30,476 nucleotides of DNA, from IMG/VR virus record IMGVR_UViG_3300025655_000186, positions 1-30,476 of that record. One strand, 5' to 3'. This stretch comes from a virus. The translations under genes were made by a program, and so were the position numbers. Under the pieces are notes generated by a model. The model was given only the letters and a program-made list of their open reading frames with translations, searched no databases and was not told where the DNA came from. This document shows, one piece after another, positions 2,686-29,747 of this stretch. The first letter of the stretch is position 1. Each line of letters starts with the position of its first letter.

Positions 2686-4287
2686 ATGGCTGGAATAAAA
2701 ATTGTCGGGTTCGGCGGTATATCGCCGAAAACGCCACCGCGCATGTTGCGTGAAGTACAAGCACAACAATCTTTTAACGCTGGTGTGTTTAACGGCGCGC
2801 TAACACCCATAAAAGACCTAGGCACTTCAGTAAAGTCTATTGTAGGCACCGCGCTTAGCATTTACAAGTTCGGGCAAGACTCTACAGATGAAACATCTGG
2901 GTGGCTAAGCTGGAGCACAGACGTAGATGTGGCGCGTGGGCAGATTAACGGCGACACAGAAGAGTGGACTTTCTATACTGGTGACGGATATCCCAAAGCT
3001 ATACGTGCTGGGTACTTAAATAGCCCAATTCCCATGGGTTTGCTGCCCCCTACATTAGCGTTAAGTTTATCGTTAGGCCCAAATCCTCCTGACGCTGCCA
3101 GCCTGACACAAGAAACTAGAGTGTATACATACACTTACGTAAACAAAGTAGGCGCTAGAGAAGTAGAGTCTTCACCGGCTCCGGCCACGCTGTCTAGTGA
3201 TGTTTATCCGTCGCAAACAGTTACGCTAACTGGTTTCTCCGCGCCAAGCAGCGGTTACGCAGCTACGCACGTAAGAATCTATAGATCGACCGCCGGTTTA
3301 TACTTGTTTGTTGCAGAAATAACATTAGCAGTTGCCATCGGCTCTGGACTCATAGATGACGTCGATCCTGAGAACTTAGCGGAAGAGCTGCCCTCTTTGT
3401 CGTGGTTAGCACCGCCTGATAATTTGGCGGGGCTTACTAACCTACCAAACGGCAACATGGCGGGCTTCGCGGGGCGCGACGTTTATTTTTGTGAGCCTTA
3501 CGTTCCTCACGCGTGGCCAGACGCATACAGGCAAACGCTAGACCACCCAGTAGTTGGGCTTGGTCGCATGGACACCACACTTGCCGTACTAACTAAGGGA
3601 ACACCATACCTTATCCAAGGCGCGCACCCTGACTCAGTGGTAGTCGTTAAGTCTGACATAGAGCAAGCGTGCGTTTCTAAGCGCAGTATTGTTAGCCTTA
3701 ATAACTTAGTTTTCTATTGTAGCCCAGACGGCCTTGTTGCGCTTACCCCCGGCGGGTCGCAGATGATAACTGAGAATATGTTCACGTACGAGCAGTGGCA
3801 AACTCAGATAAACCCAGAGTCAGTACACGCCTACCATCAAGACAACAAGTACGTAGCGTTCTACGACAACGGCGTTACACAAGGGTCTTTTGTATTCGAC
3901 CTAACTAGTCGCGAGTTTACGCTGTCGCAAGTAACAGCCACAGCAGGGTATCAGTCACTGCGCAACGACAAGTTGTACCTGCACCTTAGCGGAGCTATAC
4001 GACCATGGAGCGAAGGGGCTAATATACCTTACATCTGGAGATCTAAAATCTTTACTATGCCTAGGCCGTTGGGCATGTCTTGCGCACAAGTAGAGGCTGA
4101 GACTTACCCACTAACAGCTAAAATATATGCTGATGGCGTACTGTTACATACACAAGTAGTGCAGAACAGGTTTCCTTTTAGGCTTCCTGTTGCTACAGCC
4201 AGAGACTGGGAGTTAGAGGTTACTGGCACGAGTGAAGTGTTCGCTGCTGCGCTAGCGCAGTCTATGGAGGAGCTAGCCAATGCCTAA
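2686..4287 (+). CDS. Tail nozzle/tube-like virion structural protein
   Basis: A 533-residue structural protein. The N-terminus (GFGGISPKTPPRML, then QAQQSFNAGVFNGALTPIKD) matches the usual opening of a class of podovirus tail-tube or nozzle-like proteins (pattern GFGG..P...RLL...QA..A.N....G.L.P...). The middle has a fibronectin-III-like segment (about 140-220; YVNKVGAREVESSPAPA, HVRIYRS). After it comes beta-rich repeat sequence resembling a beta-propeller (about 240-430), with blocks such as NGNMAGFAGRDVYFCEP and FYCSPDGLVALTPGG. The next gene, the fibre, overlaps its last eight bases, so the two are coupled and probably neighbours in the virion. No enzyme motif is seen. The exact structural role is inferred from pattern and position. 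Confidence 0.6.
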   Translation: MAGIKIVGFGGISPKTPPRMLREVQAQQSFNAGVFNGALTPIKDLGTSVKSIVGTALSIYKFGQDSTDETSGWLSWSTDVDVARGQINGDTEEWTFYTGDGYPKAIRAGYLNSPIPMGLLPPTLALSLSLGPNPPDAASLTQETRVYTYTYVNKVGAREVESSPAPATLSSDVYPSQTVTLTGFSAPSSGYAATHVRIYRSTAGLYLFVAEITLAVAIGSGLIDDVDPENLAEELPSLSWLAPPDNLAGLTNLPNGNMAGFAGRDVYFCEPYVPHAWPDAYRQTLDHPVVGLGRMDTTLAVLTKGTPYLIQGAHPDSVVVVKSDIEQACVSKRSIVSLNNLVFYCSPDGLVALTPGGSQMITENMFTYEQWQTQINPESVHAYHQDNKYVAFYDNGVTQGSFVFDLTSREFTLSQVTATAGYQSLRNDKLYLHLSGAIRPWSEGANIPYIWRSKIFTMPRPLGMSCAQVEAETYPLTAKIYADGVLLHTQVVQNRFPFRLPVATARDWELEVTGTSEVFAAALAQSMEELANA

Positions 4288-7200
4288 TGTCGGCCAGTCG
4301 TTACCTACAGTAGTCTCCAATATACCTCGTGACGTGCGCATGTTCTTAGACCGCGTTAGAGAGCTTTTGTCGGAGTCTGGTGACAACGCCCTAGTGACTG
4401 AGAAGTCGCTAGTAGGCTATGGCCTAATAACTACTCAAGGCAAAGCAGTAAGCCAAGAAGGCGAAGTTTACGCTACGCCACCAGCTATAACAGGATTAGC
4501 TGCTTTAGGCGCGTTTCAGAACGTTATAATAACGTGGGACACTCCTACGTACGCTAACCACGCTTACACAGAGGTGTGGGCTTCTCCAACGTTTGATACT
4601 TTACTTCCGGTTTCTGACCCAGCCTATGTAGATCCAGCTACGCTGAACGACTTGTCGTTAGCCACCCCCATAGCTACAGCGCCGGGCGGGATAACATCAG
4701 ATCAGCTAGGTGGGGCCAAGGGCAGATACTATTGGGTGCGCGGTGTTAACACACAAGACACTGTTGGGCCGTTTAATGCGGTATCAGGCGTTTTGGCTAC
4801 AACCGCCCCAGACGTAGCGTTCTTACTTACTACTTTAACTGACTCTATTACGCAGGGGCAATTAGCCACTGCTTTGTCCGAAGAGATAGACTTAATAGCG
4901 CAACTCGAAACGTTTACTGGATATGTTGACTCGTACTCTGGCGACAATTTGGTAACAAGGTTAAGCGTTGTAGATACTTCCGTAGTAAACATAAACGCGT
5001 CTGTAAGCGCGATAAACAGTACTGTAGCTACGATAGACGCGGAAGTTGCTACACTGAATACCAATGTGGCCAATATCCAAACTGCTATTGCGGACATCGT
5101 GTCTGGGTCAACAGCAGTCTTTGTGCAGGCTTCTGAGCCTACGGGCACCATTGCTGAGTTTAGCCGATGGTACGACAGCGACGACAACAATAAGGCCTAC
5201 GTATATATCGACCAAGGTAGCGGCCTTGTTTGGGTGCCGCTTGATGACCCCCGTATCTCTGCTAATGAGGCGCATGTTGCTTCGCTAAACGCGGAAGTAT
5301 TTAACATTGACGGCACAAGTCGCCTAGCTACAGGAACTGCCTTAAGCGCGTTAGACACAACTGTTATAGCTTTAGACGACACTGTAGTTTCTATACAGGC
5401 TGATGTGACTGAGCTTGAAGGATCAGTGTTCACACTAAGCGGGCAGCAGGCTGCCACGGGTTCAGCAGTAGCAACTCTTACTAACACAGTCGCTACGCAA
5501 GGTTCTACTATAGGCTCGATACAGGCTGACGTCGTTGCGTTAGAGGGGCAGGTGTTTAACCCTGACGGTTCCGCAAGACTCGCCACTGGCGCGGCGCTAA
5601 GTACGCTTTCTAATACTGTCGCTAGCGACGGGCTTACTATTACGTCTATACAGGCGGATGTCACTACGCTAGAAGGTGAGGTGTTTAACCCTGACGGTTC
5701 CGCAAGACTCGCCACTGGCGCTGCACTGGCTTCACTAACAAATACAGTTGTTACTAACGGTGATAGTATAGGCTCAATACAGGCTGACGTCGTTGCATTA
5801 GAGGGGCAGGTGTTTAACCCTGACGGATCAGCACGTTTAGCTACTGGCGCAGCGTTGGCGTCCTTAACAAACACAGTTGTTACTAACGGTAATAGTATAG
5901 GTTCGATACAGGCTGACGTCGTTGCGCTCGAAGGTGAGGTGTTTAACCCTGATGGATCTGCGCGACTAGCTACTGGGTCTGCGGTTAGCACGCTTTCTAA
6001 TACTGTTGTATCGCAAGGCACTGAAATTGATACCCTAGAAGGAACTACTGCGTCACAAGGCTTACTTATAGGTTCGATACAGGCTGACGTGACCGCGCTC
6101 GAAGGTGAGGTGTTTAACCCTGATGGATCTGCGCGCCTTGCCACTGGGTCTGCCGTAGCAAGCCTTACCAACACTGTGACTACACAAGGGCAAACAATAG
6201 GCACCGCGCAGCAAGATATCACGGCGCTCGAAGGTGAGGTGTTTAACCCTGATGGGTCTGCACGTCTAGCTACTGGTGCAGCTGTGGCTACACTAACAAA
6301 CACAGTTACTACTAACGGCGAAAATATAGGCACCGCGCAGCAAGACATTACTTCGCTAGAAGGCTCAGTAAACACGTTGAACGGACAACAAGCAGCTACT
6401 GGCGCAGCGCTGGCGCAGCTAACAAACGTAGTTACTACCAACGGCGAAAATATAAGCACTGTCCAGCAAGACATTACTGCACTAGAAGGGCAGGTGTTTA
6501 ACCCCGATGGATCTGCACGTCTAGCTACTGGCGCAGCTGTAGCTTCACTAACTAATGCCGTAGGAGTTAACGCGGGCAACATAACCGCTGCGCAACAGTC
6601 TATAGTCGCGCTAAACAATAGTGTCGAGACTATAGATGGGCGGTCTATCGCCAATGCCAATGCCGTAAGTTCGCTTAGCCAACGTACAACCGCAGCAGAA
6701 GGTTCTTTAACAAGCATTGGCGAAAGTGTTACGTTACTACAAAACTCTTTGGAAGACGCGGAAGGAAACATCGCGGCTACCAGCCAAGCTTTAACCGCTA
6801 CTACTAACCGTGTTTCAACTGCGGAAGGCACTATAAGCTCGCAAGGTCAATCCATAGTAGCGCTAGTAAACAACCTAGCTGATACTGACGGTCTTGTCGC
6901 TGGAAATTCACAGAACATAGCTACGCTAAACTCCACAGTTGAAAATATAGATGGAATAGTAACCGCCACTTCCGAAAGTATTGCCCTGCTGTCTACTACA
7001 GTTGGGGAAAACACTGCCGCCGTAGAGACAGCGGCGGAGTCTATAAATGGGTTGTCTGCGCAGTACACAGTTAAAGTAGACAACAACGGATACGTGTCGG
7101 GTTTCGGCTTAGCGAGTACGTTGGTTAACGGCACGCCGTTCTCTGAGTTTATTGTATCGGCAGACAGGTTTGCTATTGCATCTTCTTCTGGCAGCGAGGT

Positions 7201-7669
7201 AATACCATTCGTTGTTACTACCGCGACTACTACACTCAACGGTGTTAGCGTGCCCGCTGGTGTTTACATCGACCAAGCGTTTATTAAGAACGGCGCTATC
7301 GGCACTGCGCAGATCGGCTTAGCCGCTATCGACACTGCTAAGATTGCAGACGCTGCGATCACTAATGCGAAGGTAGGAGCGCTAGACGCGTCCAAAATAA
7401 CCACTGGTTTCATAGACGCAGGCCGCATAAGCGTTGGCTCTATAGACGCTAAGATAGCGAATATTACTAGCGCGCAGATACAAGATCTTGGTGCGGACAA
7501 GATAACCGCAGGCACAATAGATGCTAGTCAAGTAACGCTCGCTGGCGTTTCGCCTTCGTTTGCTATTAAGAGCGCGACCACCGGAGAGCGGATGGAAATA
7601 ACTGCTGGAGTTATTAAGGTGTACGACGCCAGTAACGTGCTCAGAGTTAAACTTGGGAACCTTGCGTAA
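4280..7669 (+). CDS. Large tail fibre / host-specificity protein with tandem repeats
   Basis: An 1129-residue fibre. Residues about 1-200 are globular, with fibronectin-III-like sequence (AITGLAALGAFQNVIITWDTPTYANH is split here as ITGLAALGAF and NVIITWDTP; then GRYYWVRGVNT). From about 200 the chain is heptad-like and rich in Ser, Thr, Asn and Gln. Residues about 337-767 hold tandem repeats of 43 residues built on SIQADV..LEG.VFNPDGSA, RLATGAA and LTNTV. The C-terminal quarter (about 915-1129) looks like the central-fibre module of lambda gpJ-type proteins (DUF1983-like; YTVKVDNNGYVSGFGL, then DRFAIASSSG), followed by short repeats (AKIADAAITNAKVGALDASK) and a final beta strand. It should form a trimeric fibre that contacts the host surface. 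The start overlaps the upstream gene. Confidence 0.8.
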   Translation: MPNVGQSLPTVVSNIPRDVRMFLDRVRELLSESGDNALVTEKSLVGYGLITTQGKAVSQEGEVYATPPAITGLAALGAFQNVIITWDTPTYANHAYTEVWASPTFDTLLPVSDPAYVDPATLNDLSLATPIATAPGGITSDQLGGAKGRYYWVRGVNTQDTVGPFNAVSGVLATTAPDVAFLLTTLTDSITQGQLATALSEEIDLIAQLETFTGYVDSYSGDNLVTRLSVVDTSVVNINASVSAINSTVATIDAEVATLNTNVANIQTAIADIVSGSTAVFVQASEPTGTIAEFSRWYDSDDNNKAYVYIDQGSGLVWVPLDDPRISANEAHVASLNAEVFNIDGTSRLATGTALSALDTTVIALDDTVVSIQADVTELEGSVFTLSGQQAATGSAVATLTNTVATQGSTIGSIQADVVALEGQVFNPDGSARLATGAALSTLSNTVASDGLTITSIQADVTTLEGEVFNPDGSARLATGAALASLTNTVVTNGDSIGSIQADVVALEGQVFNPDGSARLATGAALASLTNTVVTNGNSIGSIQADVVALEGEVFNPDGSARLATGSAVSTLSNTVVSQGTEIDTLEGTTASQGLLIGSIQADVTALEGEVFNPDGSARLATGSAVASLTNTVTTQGQTIGTAQQDITALEGEVFNPDGSARLATGAAVATLTNTVTTNGENIGTAQQDITSLEGSVNTLNGQQAATGAALAQLTNVVTTNGENISTVQQDITALEGQVFNPDGSARLATGAAVASLTNAVGVNAGNITAAQQSIVALNNSVETIDGRSIANANAVSSLSQRTTAAEGSLTSIGESVTLLQNSLEDAEGNIAATSQALTATTNRVSTAEGTISSQGQSIVALVNNLADTDGLVAGNSQNIATLNSTVENIDGIVTATSESIALLSTTVGENTAAVETAAESINGLSAQYTVKVDNNGYVSGFGLASTLVNGTPFSEFIVSADRFAIASSSGSEVIPFVVTTATTTLNGVSVPAGVYIDQAFIKNGAIGTAQIGLAAIDTAKIADAAITNAKVGALDASKITTGFIDAGRISVGSIDAKIANITSAQIQDLGADKITAGTIDASQVTLAGVSPSFAIKSATTGERMEITAGVIKVYDASNVLRVKLGNLA
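5290..6590 (+). repeat. 129-bp in-frame tandem repeats in the fibre gene
   Basis: Phase-locked repeats of 129 bases (43 codons). The marker GTGTTTAACCCTGA, or a one-base variant, starts at 5552, 5681, 5810, 5939, 6110, 6239 and 6494. Intervals are 129, 129, 129, 171 (one unit plus a 14-codon insert), 129 and 255. The last interval contains a variant unit near 6368 that is one codon short and reads LNGQQAATG in place of FNPDGSARLATG. A similar variant unit lies near 5430 and a degenerate one near 5300. Several neighbouring copies are almost identical at DNA level, so slippage or unequal recombination could change fibre length. Confidence 0.9.
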
Positions 7670-10742: not shown

Positions 10743-13700
10743 ATGTCTATATTTAGTTTAGAACAGCTGCGGGCTATAGCTCCTGAGAGAATGAAAGGCG
10801 CCTCCGATGCGGAGCTAATAGTAGACTACAGCCAGCAGGTAGGCAAAGACGCGCAGGAAGTCGCGGAATACTTTGGCGTACGTACAGGCCGCGACAGCGG
10901 TGAGCTGGCTGCTGGTATTTCTTCAGGCGTTGACGTATTGCAGATGCTTGGTACAAGTGCTGCCGCTGGTGTAGCAGACATTGTAGGCGCGGAAGGCGCT
11001 TCTGAGTATTTGCGGGGCCAAGCGAAGCGCCAAGGCTACGAGTCGTACCTAGCAGGTAAACCCGCACTAGACCGCGTCGAAGACTTACAAGGCGTTGGTG
11101 ACTATATAGACTACGCGCAGTACCAGCTAGGCAAGCAGTTGCCTATTATGGGCGGCGTCGCCGCAGCACAGTTTGTACCGGGGCTTGGACAAGCCGCTAG
11201 CGCTGCTGGCCTCACAAGACTAGGCGCTGTTGCTCCTAGGATGTTAGGTGGTGGTGGCGCAGGCCAAGCCGCTGGTTTCGCAGGGCGCAGGCAGGCTCTG
11301 GCGCAAGGCGAAGCTCTGGCTAAATCTACCATGGTGGGCACTGGGCTTGGCTTCGGCTCTCTATATCAGGCGTCCGCTGAAGACGGCGATCCTGATCCTT
11401 TCTTGGCGCTTCTTGGCGCTATTCCTTACGGCTTAGCTGAAGCAGTAGTACCGGCTGCGCTTACTGGCGCGGCTAGAATTAAAACCGGCGCATTCACTGG
11501 TAGAATGCCTACGCGGATTGCTAAAGCTGGCGCTACCGGCGGCGCGACAGAAGCCGCAACTGAACTATTCCAGACTGAATTAGAGATCGGCATAGATGGC
11601 ACTATGACTCCAGAAGAGGCAGCTTCTCAGCGCCTCAACGCCGCTGTCGCTGGCGGATTAGTGGGTGGTTCCTTAAGCACTGTTGGTGGTATTAGAAAAG
11701 CTCCGCCGAAAATACAAAACAACGAGCTGGGAGAAACTGATTTAGCTGCTTCGCCTTCTTCTGCTATGCAGGATGTAGGCGCCTCAATCGCACAGCGTAT
11801 GCAAGCTGGGGCTAAAAAAGACGCCCCCCAAGCTGCGCCAATGACGGAAGAGCAGAAAATAGCTGAGATTCTTAAGCCTGAGTTTATGGAAGGGGCGGCA
11901 GATAAAATGTCTCGTGGCGACCGCATAAAGTTGACCAACGAGCGCAAAGATTTGCAAGCTAGGCTAGACGCTGTAGTAGAAGACTCTCCGACCGCTGGCA
12001 AGCGCGCCGCTGCCGGTAAGAACGTTACAGGAAGAAAAGCGAAAGAAGCTGCTAGGCAGCAAGCTGCCAAAGAAGCGCAGGACGAGCGAGAGATATATAC
12101 AGATAGACTTTCTCGCATCGACCAACTGCTTGCAGCCGACCAAGTAGCTACGCAAGCGGAAGCCAACCTTTCTCGTGCGGAACAAGGCATTGTAAAGCCA
12201 GAGCAACTACCCGAAGATATGCGCGAAGATGTGCGCGCTATGCCTAAGTTTGAGCAAGTTGAAGATGGCGGCATGGATCTAACTAGCGCAACCGCTGCTA
12301 CTCCAGAAGAAGCTGCGGCCCCAGCACCGATAGAAGCAGTAACCGCTCCCGCTGTTAAAGAACTAACAGACGAGGGACTGTTCAATCTAGAACAAATAGA
12401 CCCTGAGCTTATTAGCAAAGAAGAAGTAGCGATTATGGCTTCTGAGCTAGATAAGCAACGAGCGCTAAACGCAGAAGTATCATCTATCCAAGGCGCGGCA
12501 CCAAAAGGCCCGCTGCTAGATAATGGCTTTTTCTTGGGCTTGGTTGAGATGTTTCGTTCTTCTGCGGTTAATCCTGCGCCCAGATTTTACAAGGGAACTA
12601 CTGCAACTGCGCAAGATATAGAAGCCCGTGACGCAAACGCTGAGCAGATAAAAAATATCTATGATGCGGCTATTAACGTTATAACAAAGAACCAGCTAAG
12701 ATTTAATCAGTCAGACAACGCAGCTAAACGCGGCGGCAAAGCTCTGCAAAAATATAAGTCTTTATCCGCAGAAGTTGAAACAGCTATGCAAAGGCTTATT
12801 GGCGCGGCTGGTGGTGAAGCAAACGTAAACGCCCTTATAGCTGTACTTAAAAAACGCACGGCGCGCAAAAACGCTAACACGGAAAACCCTGCGCGATTCC
12901 AAAGTATGGCGAGGCGCATAGGCAAAACGGAAATAAAAACACAAGCGCAGCTCGACGAAGTTTTGGATGTGCAGCTGTCATCTGCGTTTAAAGAGTACAA
13001 GAATGGTACGCTAGGGCAGCTCGACGTCGTGCGCGGCGCGGAGACTAGACTAAACCGTGACCAGAAAGGTAAAGGGCTTGCGTCACCACTCCAAGGCATC
13101 GTTGCAACCGCAGAAACTGGTGGCTTGCGGGCGATAATAACTCGAGTAGCTAGTTGGAAAGGTACGGCTTCTCCTTATGCTGTGGCTATTGGAGGACGTA
13201 TAAAAGCCGCGCTAGACGCGCAGATGAAGGAAGGTTCTCAACCGTCCGTTGTGTTTATTGAAGACACAGACGGCCAAGTTACTACGCCAAGTTACAACCC
13301 AATGAACAACACAGTGTACATACACAAAGAAGCTTCTCAGGAAGAAATCCTGCACGAGTCTCTACACGCTGTTCTCCAGAAGTTTGTGTACGACAATCCA
13401 GACAACGCCCGTGTAACTGCGCTTAAAACCTCTTTGGCTGATTTGTTCGCGGCTGTGGACAACGGCATTTTGGACGCGGTCAATATGCCACAGGCATATA
13501 AAGACAACGCCATTAAAGTAGTAAGTCTACTTCGTGAGCTTAACGATTCTGGTCGCGAACTGGATGCTGTTTTAGAATTAGTTTCCTACGGCACTACAAT
13601 GCTTGAATTCCGCGACTTGCTTAAGAGCATTAAGAGCAACCCATCACCGGAAACAAGTGCGTGGCTAGCTGTCGCAGAGGAAGTATGGCGCAAAGTAGTA

Positions 13701-16559
13701 GACATTCTGTCGCAGCTTATTGGTGTTGAGAACACTCTTGCTAATGACGTGCTGAACAACTCTATATCGCTTATTGAATTCGTATCGGATGCAGAGCCTA
13801 CGAGTTTTGTTGCGTCCGAAGCCAAGGGGCAGACGCTTTTCATGGCAGACATGACTGATATGGCTGATACAGACAGCGATGGCAGACCTCTGGGCAACAT
13901 GTTCGAGCGCGAAGCTAAGCAGAAAGCGCTGTTTGATTCTATCTCGACTAAGTTTTTATTCGGTCAAAACTGGGAAGGCAAAGTTGCAGCTTTTGATGCC
14001 AAGCGCACCGAGTGGGCGGACAAAATTCGCAATGAATACCCCCGACTAGCTGCTTACACTTCTCTTATTGCGTCTCATTTTCAGTTGTCGCCGGATGTGC
14101 GGCGGGTGTTTAAGACCGCGAAAGAGCAGCGCAACATCGCCTACATGAACCTTAATAAATTAGCGGAAGCACTTGAGTATTATGACGTTGCTACTGCTAA
14201 GGCTATTTTGGCGTACTTGGATGGTGACGTTACAGCGTTAGACAACATAGCGCACGGGCCTAGGCTAAAAAATATGTCAGACCAGTTGTTGGCTGATATT
14301 GCTGGCTATGTAACTTCGCTGCCCGTAGAGTTACAAAAACAGTTCGCTAACCGGAAGTTCACAGAGTACCTGATCTACGTTAACGATGAGTCTACAATTT
14401 CAAGTCATAGTATGGCAATGGGAAGCCTTGCGACGCAGTTAAAAAAGCAAGGGTTCGGCGTGGATAAAGATATTATCGATAGCAACCCAGACCTGTTTGA
14501 TACTGACCCAACTACTGGCGATATAATAATAGATGGGCCTATGTACCGTGCGACGGTTACGCCATCCAATGGCGACAAACCATATACAGTATTGGTCAGC
14601 AAAGCAAAATATGAGCGCGAGGGCGGTCGTTTGCCTTCTCCTAGTGGTGTAATGGAAGTTGATACTAAACGCGAGCACGAGATCGCTCGATACGCCAGTA
14701 ACAATCAGTATCGTGTTACCTCTAAGATGGACTACAAAGATGCGTTTGACGCAAAGCAAGTGCGAGAAGTAGCCAACGCCATGCGTAACACTATGGGCGG
14801 AATTGCTTCTTACTACGCGGCGAAAAACTTCTACACGTCTATGGCCGTGGTTGGAAAGCAACAAGGCTTTGTGTTTGACAACGTAGATGAGATTAACGAA
14901 CTGTTCGCCGGAGCAGCCATTGGACAACAGTTCCAAGTGAAAACGCCAGCTACTTTAGAACAAGCCCAGCAAAAAGGTGTTGCTGATAGACTACGTTACC
15001 GTGGTAACTTCGTGCAGTATCCAAATAACCCAGATCAGTATGGTGATCTCGCTGGTAAAATTGTGCATGGCCCGGTGTACACAGCTATGCACGACATGTC
15101 CGATAGAAGCCCTATCGTGCAGTCCGAGGCTTATATATCGTCGTTGCGTACGTTTAAAAAAGCTAAAACTATATACAACCCCGGCACGCACATTACCAAC
15201 GTCTTATCCAACGTCTCGTTGATGATAATGCACGACATACCTATGAGTACGCTAGTGCGTGCCTCTAAGCTCATGTGGTTGTACGAGACCAACTCCGCAG
15301 CGCTTAGTAAGCAAGAGCTAGCGATGATGCGGGCTTTCTCCGAGTCAGGAGCGATGCTTGGCAACTTCTCAAGCGTCGAAATTAAAAAAGAGCTTTATAA
15401 GAACCTCGAAGAAAATATTCTTACTAAAGAAAGCGAGACAGTAATGTCACGCGTCACTGACATGCTGAACGCGGAAGCAGACAAAGGTAGTCGTTTCGGC
15501 AAGCTTGTTCGCTTTGGTAAAACATTAGATAAAATCGGTACAGAACTGTACGCCGCAGAAGATAACGCGTTCCGCCTTGCTGCGTTTATGAAGCAAGTTG
15601 GCGATGAAATGTCTGTGAATAATGTTTCTGAGGCGTCGCCAGAGATGCTGTCTAACGCTGGCCGTAACGCCCGTGAGATGTTCTTGGACTACGACATTGA
15701 CTCCGTCGCAGTTAAGACACTGCGTCAGACCGCGTTGCCGTTTATATCTTGGACTTACGCGATCATACCTACGCTTGGAAGAATTGCCGTTACTAAGCCT
15801 TGGCAGATGGCTAACCTTCTGGCGTCGTACGCGATGATAGACATGGCTGCCTCAGCACTTTCTGGGGACGACGACGACGAGATCCGCAAGCGCGGCCCAG
15901 AGAAACTACAAGATAGATTGTTTGGTATCGGCCCTAGGACAAACATCCGCATACCGTTTATGGGCGATTCAGAAAACCCAGTATACTACCGACTTGGCGA
16001 CTACATACCGTTAGCGTCAACCGTTAAGGGGTTGCCTACTAATAACGGCTTCATGGGTATGGACTGGTGGCCTAGTGGACTAACTCCTTCTAGCCCACTT
16101 ATAAGCGGAGTAGTGGCGCTCTTAGGCGGCGTAGACCCTTACACAGGGAATAAGCTGCATGAAATAACTGACGACTCAGTGGATCGTGCACTAAACCTAG
16201 CGGTGTTCGGCTACAACATATTCTCTCCGCCAGCCGTTAGATCAGCAAATTGGGATAAGACTGTAAAAGCTCTGTCTGGAGATGTTAACTTCGCTGGGCG
16301 TAAGGTCGATGTAACTCACCTATTATTCGCTAATATTCTTGGCTTGCGGGTAGAAACATTTAACGCTGACCAAGAAGCGCTTAGCAAGATGTTCCAAAAG
16401 AAGCAGCTTACTAGAGATTACGCGGCGGCTATTGCTAAGTACAAGCGCGAAGAGATGCGCAGTGGCAACCCGAACTACGCCGCTATGGACGAAGAGATTC
16501 AAAGCCTGCGCGCCGAACTGCAAGATGAATTGAATAAACTTTATAACCTAGGGGAATAG
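10743..16559 (+). CDS. Giant ejection-type polyvalent protein with HExxH zincin
   Basis: A 1938-residue protein in the place of T7 gp16. Residues about 50-330 are Gly/Ala rich with several hydrophobic stretches (LPIMGGVAAAQFVPGLGQAA near 133; FLALLGAIPYGLAEAVVPAA near 222) that could insert into a membrane. Residues about 365-500 are charged coiled coil. A zinc metallopeptidase signature, HESLH, is at 871-875 (ILHESLHAVL) after a strand NTVYIHKEAS, as in zincin domains of phage polyvalent proteins. The rest is mainly helical, with another hydrophobic region at about 1665-1705 (ALPFISWTYAIIPTLGRIAV) and an acidic DDDDE after it. I see no lytic transglycosylase motif. The likely role is internal virion protein ejected with the DNA, with protease activity as the enzymatic part. 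The protease call rests on a short motif and context. Confidence 0.75.
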   Translation: MSIFSLEQLRAIAPERMKGASDAELIVDYSQQVGKDAQEVAEYFGVRTGRDSGELAAGISSGVDVLQMLGTSAAAGVADIVGAEGASEYLRGQAKRQGYESYLAGKPALDRVEDLQGVGDYIDYAQYQLGKQLPIMGGVAAAQFVPGLGQAASAAGLTRLGAVAPRMLGGGGAGQAAGFAGRRQALAQGEALAKSTMVGTGLGFGSLYQASAEDGDPDPFLALLGAIPYGLAEAVVPAALTGAARIKTGAFTGRMPTRIAKAGATGGATEAATELFQTELEIGIDGTMTPEEAASQRLNAAVAGGLVGGSLSTVGGIRKAPPKIQNNELGETDLAASPSSAMQDVGASIAQRMQAGAKKDAPQAAPMTEEQKIAEILKPEFMEGAADKMSRGDRIKLTNERKDLQARLDAVVEDSPTAGKRAAAGKNVTGRKAKEAARQQAAKEAQDEREIYTDRLSRIDQLLAADQVATQAEANLSRAEQGIVKPEQLPEDMREDVRAMPKFEQVEDGGMDLTSATAATPEEAAAPAPIEAVTAPAVKELTDEGLFNLEQIDPELISKEEVAIMASELDKQRALNAEVSSIQGAAPKGPLLDNGFFLGLVEMFRSSAVNPAPRFYKGTTATAQDIEARDANAEQIKNIYDAAINVITKNQLRFNQSDNAAKRGGKALQKYKSLSAEVETAMQRLIGAAGGEANVNALIAVLKKRTARKNANTENPARFQSMARRIGKTEIKTQAQLDEVLDVQLSSAFKEYKNGTLGQLDVVRGAETRLNRDQKGKGLASPLQGIVATAETGGLRAIITRVASWKGTASPYAVAIGGRIKAALDAQMKEGSQPSVVFIEDTDGQVTTPSYNPMNNTVYIHKEASQEEILHESLHAVLQKFVYDNPDNARVTALKTSLADLFAAVDNGILDAVNMPQAYKDNAIKVVSLLRELNDSGRELDAVLELVSYGTTMLEFRDLLKSIKSNPSPETSAWLAVAEEVWRKVVDILSQLIGVENTLANDVLNNSISLIEFVSDAEPTSFVASEAKGQTLFMADMTDMADTDSDGRPLGNMFEREAKQKALFDSISTKFLFGQNWEGKVAAFDAKRTEWADKIRNEYPRLAAYTSLIASHFQLSPDVRRVFKTAKEQRNIAYMNLNKLAEALEYYDVATAKAILAYLDGDVTALDNIAHGPRLKNMSDQLLADIAGYVTSLPVELQKQFANRKFTEYLIYVNDESTISSHSMAMGSLATQLKKQGFGVDKDIIDSNPDLFDTDPTTGDIIIDGPMYRATVTPSNGDKPYTVLVSKAKYEREGGRLPSPSGVMEVDTKREHEIARYASNNQYRVTSKMDYKDAFDAKQVREVANAMRNTMGGIASYYAAKNFYTSMAVVGKQQGFVFDNVDEINELFAGAAIGQQFQVKTPATLEQAQQKGVADRLRYRGNFVQYPNNPDQYGDLAGKIVHGPVYTAMHDMSDRSPIVQSEAYISSLRTFKKAKTIYNPGTHITNVLSNVSLMIMHDIPMSTLVRASKLMWLYETNSAALSKQELAMMRAFSESGAMLGNFSSVEIKKELYKNLEENILTKESETVMSRVTDMLNAEADKGSRFGKLVRFGKTLDKIGTELYAAEDNAFRLAAFMKQVGDEMSVNNVSEASPEMLSNAGRNAREMFLDYDIDSVAVKTLRQTALPFISWTYAIIPTLGRIAVTKPWQMANLLASYAMIDMAASALSGDDDDEIRKRGPEKLQDRLFGIGPRTNIRIPFMGDSENPVYYRLGDYIPLASTVKGLPTNNGFMGMDWWPSGLTPSSPLISGVVALLGGVDPYTGNKLHEITDDSVDRALNLAVFGYNIFSPPAVRSANWDKTVKALSGDVNFAGRKVDVTHLLFANILGLRVETFNADQEALSKMFQKKQLTRDYAAAIAKYKREEMRSGNPNYAAMDEEIQSLRAELQDELNKLYNLGE

Positions 16560-21811: not shown

Positions 21812-22195
21812 TTATTGGTTTTTTCTAAAATTAAACACACTTACTGAGCTAAAGTTTACGCCGGGGGGCGGCTCACCTGCGGCTTCAATATAACTTTTTA
21901 CTGCTGTCTTTGACGCGCGTGACTCTATCAAATCCCAAGCGTCGTTCTCCATACAAAACTTAAACAAGTCTTCTCTGGACGCCACAGTAGCTGAATGGTG
22001 CGTTGACCAGTAAGCTGTACCTGCGTCGGTCTTAATCGATGTAAGTCCGTCTTCTTGAGACTTCACCGTAAACCAGTTTTCTAATGCAATCATCTTCTCT
22101 TTAATAACAGCTTTTCGCTGCTTATATTCCTGATCTAAAGCGTCAAGATCTTTCTTGACAGAGAGGTATCTGTCAGCTGCTACTTCGTAGTTCAT
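21812..22195 (-). CDS. Conserved phage protein with coiled-coil N-terminus
   Basis: A 127-residue protein from the ATG at 22195. The N-terminal 45 residues are a charged coiled coil (YLSVKKDLDALDQEYKQRKA). Residues about 45-105 hold a family signature (GLTSIKTDAGTAYWSTHHSA, then WDLIESRASKTAVKSYIE), followed by GEPPPGVNFSS and a final strand. This protein type is common in phage genomes next to SSB or recombination genes, with no assigned function. Its pattern recalls, without proving, Gam-like or nuclease-inhibitor proteins. GGAG lies six to seven bases before the ATG; a longer frame would begin at a TTG (22207). The upstream ORF at 22213 repeats part of this gene. Confidence 0.72.
   Translation of the reverse strand: MNYEVAADRYLSVKKDLDALDQEYKQRKAVIKEKMIALENWFTVKSQEDGLTSIKTDAGTAYWSTHHSATVASREDLFKFCMENDAWDLIESRASKTAVKSYIEAAGEPPPGVNFSSVSVFNFRKNQ
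22017..22102. repeat. 86-bp direct repeat, parental copy (partner 22325-22410)
   Basis: This segment lies inside the conserved phage gene and is repeated at 22325-22410 with six mismatches by eye. The parental copies are 308 bases further apart than in the chimera, where the spacing is 221; the 87-base difference equals the 29 codons missing from the chimera. Confidence 0.9.
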
Positions 22196-22324
22196 GTCAT
22201 TCTCCAAGTATATTAGTCACTACTATTAGTACCACGCAGCAAGTCTAAGAACTCGGCTAACGTGTTTTGCTTCGCACGCGGTCTCCTATACGGCTCTGCC
22301 TCGACGTTTGTTGCGTAGATATGC
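22190..22324. repeat. 135-bp direct repeat, copy 1 (partner 22411-22545)
   Basis: This segment and 22411-22545 are direct repeats, aligned without gaps and with six mismatches by eye. Each spans the end of the helicase coding frame, the intergenic GGAG site and the first codons of the next gene. Spacing between copies is 221 bases. Confidence 0.92.
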
Positions 22325-22416
22325 GTACCTACGTCGGTCTTAATCGAGGTAAGTCCGTCTTCTTGAGACTTCGCCGTAACCCAATTTTTTAATGCAATCA
22401 TCTTCTCTTTGTTCAT
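22213..22416 (-). pseudogene. Chimeric ORF from a tandem duplication of gene end and gene start
   Basis: A 67-residue ORF whose first half copies the downstream gene and whose second half copies the end of the upstream helicase. Residues 1-31 (MNKEKMIALKNWVTAKSQED and the KTDVGT end) match that gene, but lack 29 codons after the second residue. Residues 32-67 (HIYATNVEAEPYRRPRAKQN to the final NSSD) match the helicase C-terminus with five substitutions. The start signal is also duplicated (GGAGAATGAC before ATG). The ORF remains open and may be translated. It holds only a helicase tail and part of an unknown domain, so I treat it as a remnant. Five of six base changes in the helicase-derived half alter the protein, as expected for relaxed selection. 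Confidence 0.8.
22325..22410. repeat. 86-bp direct repeat, chimeric copy (partner 22017-22102)
   Basis: The junction to the helicase-derived part is at about 22324/22325, where GATATGC joins GTACCT. The opposite edge joins directly to the duplicated start codon region. Confidence 0.9.
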
Positions 22417-22545
22417 GTCATTCTCCAAGTATATTAGTCACTACTATTAATACCACGCACCAAGTCTAAGAACTCAGCTAACGTGTTTTGCTTCGCACGC
22501 AGTCTCCTATACAGCTCTGCCTCGAAGTTTGTTGCGTAGATATGC
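22411..22545. repeat. 135-bp direct repeat, copy 2 (partner 22190-22324)
   Basis: This copy includes the true C-terminus of the helicase gene and is therefore probably the parental one. Differences from copy 1 are concentrated at second or first codon positions. Confidence 0.92.
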
Positions 22546-23984
22546 CACACAGAAGTTTTACCTTCAGTAGTAAGTCTACGAATTCTAGCATTGGCCTGCT
22601 CGTACTGCTCAAGTGAGTAGATAGGAGCGTACCAAATAATATGTTTCGCTGCGGTCAGCGTAAGCCCGTGCGCAGCAACCTTCGGGTGCGCCAACAGTAT
22701 CTGCGGCTGGTCAGTGTGTTGGAAGTTGTGAAAGATTTCGTCGCGGTCTTTCTTGCTAACATCACCGTTAACAAGCTCAACGCTATATTTTTCTTCACGT
22801 AACCTCTTAAGCAACCACCGTTGCACGCCCTTCAGCGGAACGAAGATAATAACCTTGCCGCCTATCTCAGTAATCAATTCAGTAAGCGTATTATACCGCT
22901 CTGAGCTGTCTATGACAATTGAATCGTCCTCGCTGTAAACAACACCACAACAAATTTGTAGCAGCTTAGACAACATTACAGCAGTGTTAGCCGCAGTGAC
23001 CGACCCCTCTTTAAATATGGTAACAGCTTTTTCTTGCATGTCCTTAAATGCTTTTATTTGTTGAGGGGTTAGCTCAGTCTTTCGTCCTACGAAGTTGGTA
23101 CTTGGCAAATCTTTACACTCGTCTAGCGAGAACCGTATAGATGGCTGTAGCACTTTCTTGCAAGTCTCTAGCGCGTCGTCTCTGGGTACCCACTTAAACT
23201 GAGTTATCTTCTTCATCACCGTATCTTTAAACGCAGTAAAGCTCCTAGAGACATTCGGCGAGTCCACCAACCTAGCCAGCGTCCAAGCATCTGCTGGCGT
23301 TTGTGATATTGGTGTACCAGTCAACATCCACAGCCAAGGCCTGTTAGCGTTCATCCACTTGGCGAATATCTTGTACCGTTGTGAAGACGCAGACTTTAGC
23401 GCAGTAGCTTCGTCATAGATAACTACGTCTATGTCCGCCAGATGTTCCTGCATATTGCTAAAGCCATCATGGTTAATAATAACGTATTGAATTCCCGGCG
23501 TTGACAACAGGTCGATACGTTTTTTCTTTGATCCAGTACATATAACAAACTGCCTGTGTGGTAAGTGCGTCTTAAGTTCCGTACCCCACACTACTTTTAC
23601 CGTAGACAATGGCGCTACGATAAGTACCTTTTTCGCCACACCCTCACATAGCAGGAAGTCTGCGGCCCACAGTGAACTAATAGACTTGCCAGTTCCCGGC
23701 GCGTTAAGGCACAAAGACTTTTTATGCGTAGTAAGAAACGCAGCCGTGTCTTTCTGGTGCTCCATCGGCGTGAACTTCGCAGGCCAATCATAGTACTCAC
23801 GTATAGGCTCTGGTACGCTAAACCCCATATTACGTAGCACGATGGACTCGTCAACGCCGTAGGGTATAGCTATTAGCTCCTCGCCGTTGTGCTCCAACTG
23901 CTTAGCATGGGGTATAACCTCAGCAATAGCGCCGTTACAAGAACTGTTAATTATTATAGTTTTCTTATCCTTAAGAACTAGCAC
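22434..23984 (-). CDS. SNF2-type superfamily 2 helicase
   Basis: A 516-residue ATP-dependent helicase/translocase with the two RecA-like halves. Motifs: Q/H region FTPMEHQKDTAAFL (71-84), Walker A NAPGTGKS (94-101), DEAT box IYDEAT (189-194), motif III MLTGTPIS (220-227), and in the second half KVIIFVPLKGVQRWL, the HGLTLT stretch and motif VI QANARIRRL (about 464). It belongs with SNF2-like phage helicases and probably remodels or unwinds DNA at forks or recombination intermediates. It starts with a GTG at 23984 that overlaps the VRR-NUC stop by seven bases; no better start is near. VRR-NUC next to an SNF2 helicase is a known phage pairing, related to VRR-NUC/SNF2 fusions. Its last 37 codons are duplicated downstream. 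Confidence 0.92.
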   Translation of the reverse strand: MLVLKDKKTIIINSSCNGAIAEVIPHAKQLEHNGEELIAIPYGVDESIVLRNMGFSVPEPIREYYDWPAKFTPMEHQKDTAAFLTTHKKSLCLNAPGTGKSISSLWAADFLLCEGVAKKVLIVAPLSTVKVVWGTELKTHLPHRQFVICTGSKKKRIDLLSTPGIQYVIINHDGFSNMQEHLADIDVVIYDEATALKSASSQRYKIFAKWMNANRPWLWMLTGTPISQTPADAWTLARLVDSPNVSRSFTAFKDTVMKKITQFKWVPRDDALETCKKVLQPSIRFSLDECKDLPSTNFVGRKTELTPQQIKAFKDMQEKAVTIFKEGSVTAANTAVMLSKLLQICCGVVYSEDDSIVIDSSERYNTLTELITEIGGKVIIFVPLKGVQRWLLKRLREEKYSVELVNGDVSKKDRDEIFHNFQHTDQPQILLAHPKVAAHGLTLTAAKHIIWYAPIYSLEQYEQANARIRRLTTEGKTSVWHIYATNFEAELYRRLRAKQNTLAEFLDLVRGINSSD

Positions 23985-28330: not shown

Positions 28331-28633
28331 TCAGAACCTCGGCGTAAACAACACGTGCGCAACTACATCTCCACGATGTACTACTTCATAGAACTCGCCG
28401 TGTTTGTTCGCGCCTCTGGCTTTCATCTCCTGTAATATTACAGTCAGCGACCGTCCTATTGTAGAAACATATACTGTGTTTGAGTTATTCTCAACCGTAA
28501 GCCAATCCTTCTTAACGTCTAGGCTTACCCCGATCTCTTCAAACCCGCGCACTAGTTTACTTTCTAAGCGTATAAGCCTAGTTACAAAATTTTCTTCTGT
28601 CGGCTTGTAAAATTCATCTTTAGACTTGGACAT
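28331..28633 (-). CDS. Phage early protein, 100 residues, unknown function
   Basis: A 100-residue protein. An N-terminal helix (FVTRLIRLESKLVRGFEEIG) is followed by a beta-rich part with strands at KDWLTVENNSNTVYVST, LTVILQEMKARG and EVVHRGDVVAHVLFTP. I do not recognise a family. It overlaps the end of the VWA gene by 14 bases (GGAG upstream of the ATG) and ends one base before the HTH gene, so it belongs to the same operon. Positional evidence supports expression; no function can be assigned. Confidence 0.62.
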   Translation of the reverse strand: MSKSKDEFYKPTEENFVTRLIRLESKLVRGFEEIGVSLDVKKDWLTVENNSNTVYVSTIGRSLTVILQEMKARGANKHGEFYEVVHRGDVVAHVLFTPRF

Positions 28634-29747
28634 TTGCTACTACTCCGAATGGCGCGCTGCGCACTCTATACTGTGTGTTGGCCCATATTACTGGGCATTC
28701 TGGTTCTACGCACTCGTCAAGGTTACCTTCCATATCAGTAAAGTAAACTAGTCCCTCTACTTTGTCTGTCATGTTAGCTAGGTAATCGAACACTGGCCTG
28801 AACCTAGTGCCCCCACCGCCTGTGCACTTAAGCTCCACGGTATCTTCGCGGTCAAACCGCTGGGTATTTTTTACCTGTGTGTCGCAGTAAACAACCTCTA
28901 TAAATTCCGGATTCATGTCCTCTTTAATCTGCTCTACTTCAGCTGCTATTTGTGATAACTCTTTCTGCGACATAGACCCAGACGAATCGATAGCTATTAG
29001 CAGTCCGCCTAGTGCATCGCTGTGCAAGCTAGGCATGTACAGGCCCTGCGAAATAAACCTTCTGGACGGCCTACGATATGTGTAGTCGTTCGCTGCTGCT
29101 GAAGTGAGTAACGCACGTAACTCGTCGCGCCAGTCTATTGAAGGCTTACCAGCTGACTTTAGAATACTCTCTATAAGTCCGCTCGTATGTCCGCAATCTT
29201 TAGCCATCTGCGCTGCTGCTGCAATGGTAGCCTCTAGGTCTGACTTGGTGGCTTCGTTTGGTGCGTCGGATATATCGCCTTTGCCGTCAAAACCTCCAGC
29301 GTCATACTTCGGCTTGCCTCCGCCCGCTGCTTTGTTCTCTTCTTCGTCTTTCTTAAGGCGCTTATATACAGTCTCTGAGTCCATACTCTCAGTGACCCAT
29401 CCGACGTGTACACCACCGGCTGGCAGTGAGTACCCGCGACTTAGGATGTACGCGTTGATGATGGCGTCGTTGGCGTAGTTCCACAGGCTAGGGTCACGGT
29501 CGCCACGTCGCCACATGTGCATTAGCACGACGTGCAGCGCCTCATGCAGTACTAGCCCGAACAGCTCTGCGTTGTCTAACTTCTCGACAAAGTCAGGGCC
29601 GAACTTTACAACTGTGCCATCAGTAGCGGCAGTTGGTGTTTTTGGATCTACCACGCGGGGTATGCGAGTCATAACCGCAGCGATAAATGGCTCTCGCAAG
29701 CCAAGCTTGCTGTAAGCGTCTTCAATGCGTTTTTCTATTTTGTCCAT
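28620..29747 (-). CDS. DUF2201-type zincin with VWA metallopeptidase-like protein
   Basis: A 375-residue protein. The N-terminal part carries a zinc peptidase-like HEALH at 68-72 (LVLHEALHVVLMH), followed by DPSLWNYANDAIIN, as in DUF2201. A low-complexity linker (about 134-165, Gly/Lys/Asp rich) joins it to a VWA domain with a MIDAS motif, IDSSGSMS (253-260), and the Thr/Gly turn GGGGTRF. Such proteins act with MoxR AAA+ ATPases. The end of such an ATPase lies two genes upstream, so together they may form a chaperone or protease complex that remodels a metal-dependent target. GGAG precedes the ATG. The gap before it (29748-29781) holds a 16-bp palindrome. Confidence 0.85.
   Translation of the reverse strand: MDKIEKRIEDAYSKLGLREPFIAAVMTRIPRVVDPKTPTAATDGTVVKFGPDFVEKLDNAELFGLVLHEALHVVLMHMWRRGDRDPSLWNYANDAIINAYILSRGYSLPAGGVHVGWVTESMDSETVYKRLKKDEEENKAAGGGKPKYDAGGFDGKGDISDAPNEATKSDLEATIAAAAQMAKDCGHTSGLIESILKSAGKPSIDWRDELRALLTSAAANDYTYRRPSRRFISQGLYMPSLHSDALGGLLIAIDSSGSMSQKELSQIAAEVEQIKEDMNPEFIEVVYCDTQVKNTQRFDREDTVELKCTGGGGTRFRPVFDYLANMTDKVEGLVYFTDMEGNLDECVEPECPVIWANTQYRVRSAPFGVVANVQV

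Follow-up and report, generated by a model that had tools for sequence, protein, structure and literature searches.

The locus and its repeats

The window, which here denotes the whole 30,476-nt stretch of the virus record IMGVR_UViG_3300025655_000186 and not the feature under study, carries a short chimeric open reading frame (ORF) between a helicase gene and its neighbour. All genes in this region are encoded on the minus strand, and the features of the locus are the following.

22434–23984, minus strand: SNF2-family DNA helicase, 516 aa, intact (Pfam, PHROG, sister contigs); its 3′ end (22434–22545) belongs to tail copy 1
22411–22545, minus strand: tail copy 1 (3′ end of the helicase, followed by the 17-nt spacer carrying the ribosome-binding site and by ATGAAC), direct repeat with 22190–22324
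22410–22411, minus strand: breakpoint of an 87-bp deletion, ATGAAC / AAAGAG, without microhomology (parent versus chimera sequences)
22325–22410, minus strand: truncated copy of the 5′ part of the neighbour, 86 bp, 93% identity to 22017–22102
22324–22325, minus strand: duplication breakpoint, neighbour ...GGTAC / GCATATC... helicase, without microhomology (parent versus chimera sequences)
22213–22416, minus strand: chimeric ORF, 67 aa, consisting of neighbour codons 1–2 and 32–59, one junction codon and the last 36 helicase residues plus stop (translation; codon comparison with the parents)
22190–22324, minus strand: tail copy 2 (3′ end of the helicase as part of the chimera, followed by spacer, ribosome-binding site and neighbour start), direct repeat
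21812–22195, minus strand: neighbour gene, 127 aa, intact (AlphaFold2, BFVD matches, PHROG 13900)

Two pairs of direct repeats, both far beyond chance, define this arrangement. The 135-bp pair (22190–22324 and 22411–22545) is 95.56% identical and stretches to 140 bp at 94% identity; the 86-bp pair (22017–22102 and 22325–22410) is 93.02% identical. Each pair contains six mismatches, in agreement with the lengths and positions given in a preliminary description of this DNA. Combined, the repeats form a tandem duplicate comprising the helicase gene's end and the neighbour gene's start, minus 87 bp of the latter. The bases absent from the upstream copy correspond to exactly 29 codons, namely neighbour codons 3–31. 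Read along the minus strand, the helicase (23984→22434) is followed by a 17-nt spacer with GGAG, by ATGAAC and by 86 bp of the neighbour from codon 32 onwards, after which come once more the last 36 helicase codons with the stop and the spacer, and finally the neighbour in intact form (22195→21812).

Other direct repeats of comparable size occur in the window only in one tail-fibre gene (5390–6597). There, about seven degenerate, mostly tandem copies of a 129-bp (43-codon) unit lie within the ORF 4280–7669 (plus strand), which encodes a tail-fibre-like protein of 1129 aa. A further plus-strand ORF (10743–16559, 1938 aa) is weakly matched by one virion structural protein family. Across the window and 80 relatives (81 sequences, 687 kb in total) no further repeat was found at E ≤ 1e-8 except for one 31-bp pair, and a search of the helicase surroundings in the 80 relatives yielded no similar duplicates.

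The parent genes

The helicase matches SNF2-rel_dom and Helicase_C in Pfam as well as a DNA helicase PHROG (3.7e-98), and it is approximately 99% identical to four sister contigs. The AlphaFold2 model of the neighbour (mean pLDDT 94.1) consists of a long N-terminal helix (residues 3–49) and a small alpha/beta part. In BFVD this fold is weakly similar to phage Gp157-like proteins, the nearest viral models including one named Siphovirus Gp157 and, more weakly, one named host-nuclease inhibitor. Pfam DUF7307 was matched weakly by 31 of 37 relatives of the neighbour, and searches of the PDB by sequence and by fold gave no significant match. The only PHROG match is 13900, “minor head protein”, a label that probably derives from phage Xp15. 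Given that relatives have the neighbour beside the helicase and that its model is similar to Gp157-like proteins, the head annotation of 21812–22195 is doubtful. The gene lies within a replication module with primase/helicase-like, PD-(D/E)XK exonuclease and DNA polymerase A genes. Beyond the polymerase gene, 28620–29747 (minus strand) encodes a 375-aa protein matching the HNH endonuclease PHROG 1314 (1.8e-91).

The chimeric ORF

Translation of 22213–22416 yields 67 stop-free residues, so that the in-frame, intact ORF of the preliminary description is confirmed; an alternative TTG start at 22428 would lengthen it to 71 aa. Peptides spanning TDVGTHIYATNVEAEPYR, for example, would be unique to the chimera. 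The copied start signal is likewise present, as the 24 bases 5′ of the start codon, GGAG included, are identical between chimera and neighbour. Judging from this identical start region, the chimera would be translated at a level similar to that of the neighbour. Predicted promoter and terminator sites were no commoner than in shuffled sequences and none of them lay within the insert. Neither Pfam nor PHROGs contained a known family for the chimera, and a match in NCBIfam was far under its cut-off. Most of the long helix of the neighbour is deleted in the chimera, and confidence in the single-sequence structure model of the chimera, with a pLDDT of 60 on average, is low.

The empty site in relatives

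Searches with the helicase, the neighbour and the chimera yielded 159 viral-contig loci, often several per contig. The helicase–neighbour junction was readable at 154 of them, representing 69 distinct junction sequences, and at none of the 154 was there another copy of the helicase tail or of the neighbour start. From helicase stop to neighbour start the distance is −1 to 34 bp at 151 of these loci. The remaining three, from distant relatives, have 573, 609 and 830 bp between the two genes. Two of these carry HNH endonuclease genes (PHROG 374, E below 1e-50) exactly between helicase and neighbour (L056, 5535–6143; L081, 5999–6571), and L064 carries 830 bp of other DNA, which indicates that the helicase–neighbour junction tolerates insertions. 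In the four sister contigs (L002–L005), which share 98.7–99.1% nucleotide identity with the window on both flanks, the helicase runs directly into the neighbour and there is no duplication. The gene order is also unchanged in the isolated phages Xp15, Effie and Rollin, which carry distant relatives of both genes, and nothing corresponding to the chimera was seen in them.

An exact search of the IMG/VR viral contigs found neither the duplication breakpoint nor the 87-bp deletion breakpoint, a nucleotide search of a phage collection gave no match, a search of a genome collection gave just one distant match, to the helicase tail, and protein searches recovered the separate halves but no match joining both; as these collections may omit the window's own record or very near ones, this absence is uninformative on the source sample. 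The chimera is carried by one contig only, and no retention in a second lineage was found, either at the 154 loci or in the collection scans. The preliminary description had proposed a search of related phages, and the absence of the chimera from every relative found supports the youth that it implied. An old independent gene can be rejected, as no match spans both halves and none of the relatives found has such a 67-residue ORF. Matches of 39–52% over chimera residues 6–67 were also considered as an independent gene and rejected, because where checked they correspond to the helicase C-terminus.

Substitutions in the duplicated copy

Compared codon by codon with its parent, the helicase-derived half exhibits five replacement differences and one silent difference, as described before; in the half taken from the neighbour, four differences are replacements and two are silent. 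This amounts to 12 differences in 221 bp, nine replacement and three silent. Polarisation with the relatives places 11 of the 12 as private to the chimera, including all nine replacements. The silent site at codon 54 has C in the chimera and in the sisters, and T in the helicase of the window and in the nearest outgroup (L006–L009), with L010 also having C. As the sister contigs have C, this change is unassignable to either copy.

Random changes in the chimera sequence would be approximately 68–75% replacement, 21–30% silent and 3–5% stop (about 75:20 replacement to silent per 100). In the background, strain differences are mostly silent (pS 0.034, pN 0.004), with about 23 replacement and 63 silent differences between the window and one sister; the Fisher p for chimera versus background is 0.0005–0.001 (with 22:64 entered for the latter). 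The 9:3 ratio therefore sets the chimera strongly apart from constrained genes, but not from neutrality, and replacements are not fewer than neutrally expected. Relaxed selection, as suggested in the preliminary description, fits this mix, which is that of unconstrained DNA. The replacements include F487, L491, L495 and V509 of the helicase, invariant in 42 relatives, for which the chimera has V, P, P and L, respectively, and the invariant E39 of the neighbour, which has become K.

When 11 random changes were simulated, the frame was still open in 64–75% of the trials, so that openness is no evidence of function. Moreover, the earlier reader could have spotted only an in-frame case. The changes in the chimera lower hydrophobicity beyond random expectation (P 0.03–0.04), and 6 of 11 start from T, compared with 1 of 28 in the background (p 0.0009). 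As both observations were made post hoc, they are not counted as evidence of selection.

Origin and age of the duplication

The tandem duplication from the helicase C-terminus into the next gene, minus 87 bases, which the preliminary description had proposed, is supported by features seen directly: the repeats, the intact parents, the copied ribosome-binding site, the breakpoints and the empty site of the relatives. The locus is probably explained by a real, lineage-private event through illegitimate recombination or template switching, the product of which would be useless, drift neutrally and eventually be lost. The blunt breakpoints suggest homology-independent recombination or a template switch during replication. 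The unit copied once, head to tail, would have begun within the 3′ end of the helicase, taken in the 17-nt spacer that holds the ribosome-binding site of the neighbour, and ended at neighbour codon 60; the upstream copy lacks 87 bp of the neighbour. One route would be a tandem duplication of 308 bp and a subsequent deletion of 87 bp, another a single event involving two jumps, and the order is indistinguishable. As the unit begins within the upstream and ends within the downstream gene, helicase and neighbour both stay whole. In the middle of the array a frame would result that opens with the translation signals of the neighbour and closes with the last 36 helicase codons and stop.

The synonymous divergence between the window and its sisters is approximately 0.034, and about two thirds of the polarised differences lie on the window branch. 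On this branch about five neutral changes would be predicted for 221 bp, compared with 11 private ones observed (P about 0.014), or 7.5 if the whole path is placed there (P 0.14). For the apparent age of the copy this is about double the neutral expectation, a mild oddity that leaves its age or its mutation process not fully explained. Either the duplication predates the split from the sisters, which then lost it, or the copy mutated somewhat faster. An origin before the split, with precise loss in the sisters by recombination between the tail copies and retention in the window lineage alone, is compatible with the preferred explanation, from which it differs in timing only, and appears possible but rather unlikely. 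The copies have diverged (12/221) more than the synonymous divergence to the sisters would suggest, and the C at codon 54 shared with the sisters, as an early crossover upstream of that site would leave, is a weak hint in the same direction. However, this hint is one silent transition and possibly a coincidence, as L010 also has C, and the excess of changes is modest.

It appears quite improbable that the chimera is a new functional gene, i.e., one translated from the copied start into a small protein kept or shaped by selection (e.g., one competing with the tail of the helicase or with the neighbour). The open frame, the unchanged start region, the number of changes above neutral expectation and the drop in hydrophobicity would fit such a role. 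However, the replacement/silent mix equals the neutral expectation, the frame is likely open by chance, the structure model is of low confidence, the neighbour's helix is mostly gone, the helicase tail has lost invariant residues and there is no second carrier.

An assembly or library artefact, fusing strain variants or chimeric molecules, is similarly unlikely. The contig is a single metagenome-derived one and its junctions occur in no other contig, which would fit an artefact. Yet two independent breakpoints would be required, and no sequence common to the joined ends explains the junctions: neither breakpoint has a base in common between its two sides, which leaves an assembler no repeat over which to join them. 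A second copy taken from a strain variant is rejected, as all 19 aligned relatives, in both halves, resemble the parent copy more closely than they do the chimera. The private changes fall mainly at codon positions 1 and 2, unlike the mostly silent strain differences. Still less credible is the reading that a phage fusion gene has been caught in nature on its way from birth to fixation, its translation starting at the copied signals and its changes outpacing those of neutral DNA as selection alters or disarms the peptide of helicase tail and replication-module protein.

Under the preferred explanation, the neutral substitution pattern suggests that the chimera does nothing useful and drifts unconstrained, and its loss would be expected, probably by recombination between the 135-bp repeats. 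The preliminary description had left a choice between gene birth and decay in progress. Birth is not supported in view of the neutral 9:3 mix, the lost invariant helicase residues and a frame likely open by chance, whereas decay fits the pattern better. As far as its sequence tells, the chimera is most likely a young duplicate that is decaying rather than a demonstrated new gene.

Comparison with known chimeric genes

Partial gene duplicates can decay as pseudogenes. The phage chimera resembles such cases in its neutral replacement/silent ratio, its lost invariant residues and its internal deletion, and differs from them in having kept both its reading frame and its start signal intact. A literature search on phage chimeras formed by duplication revealed no direct phage precedent. 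In Staphylococcus aureus, the chimeric genes nusG′-′sigH and rplK′-′sigH arose in the laboratory by short-junction tandem duplication and are reversible, expressed and selected; in clone B1 the duplicated unit spans 1210 bp and is bounded by an 8-bp repeat (PMC3486894). As in nusG′-′sigH, the phage locus is a head-to-tail partial duplication in which both parents remain intact around the chimera (PMC3486894). It also shares with the sigH fusions that the 3′ part of the upstream gene stands in frame behind the start signals (ribosome-binding site and start codon) and first codons of the downstream gene. Unlike clone B1, the phage insert measures 221 bp and has blunt breakpoints and an 87-bp internal deletion. 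No short direct repeat is present at the ends of the phage duplication, so that the outcome is the same as that of a short-junction duplication but the event is not strictly one. Furthermore, unlike the sigH chimeras, the phage duplicate is natural and has already diverged by approximately 5%, and nothing indicates that it is expressed or beneficial.

The phage chimera is of a known kind, real, recent and lineage-private. Together with its empty-site sister, it provides a clean natural case of a blunt tandem duplication in a tight phage operon leading to an in-frame fusion that gains ready-made translation signals while both parents stay whole. It is one roughly dated example of such a duplicate evolving unconstrained, with no evidence of a new function.
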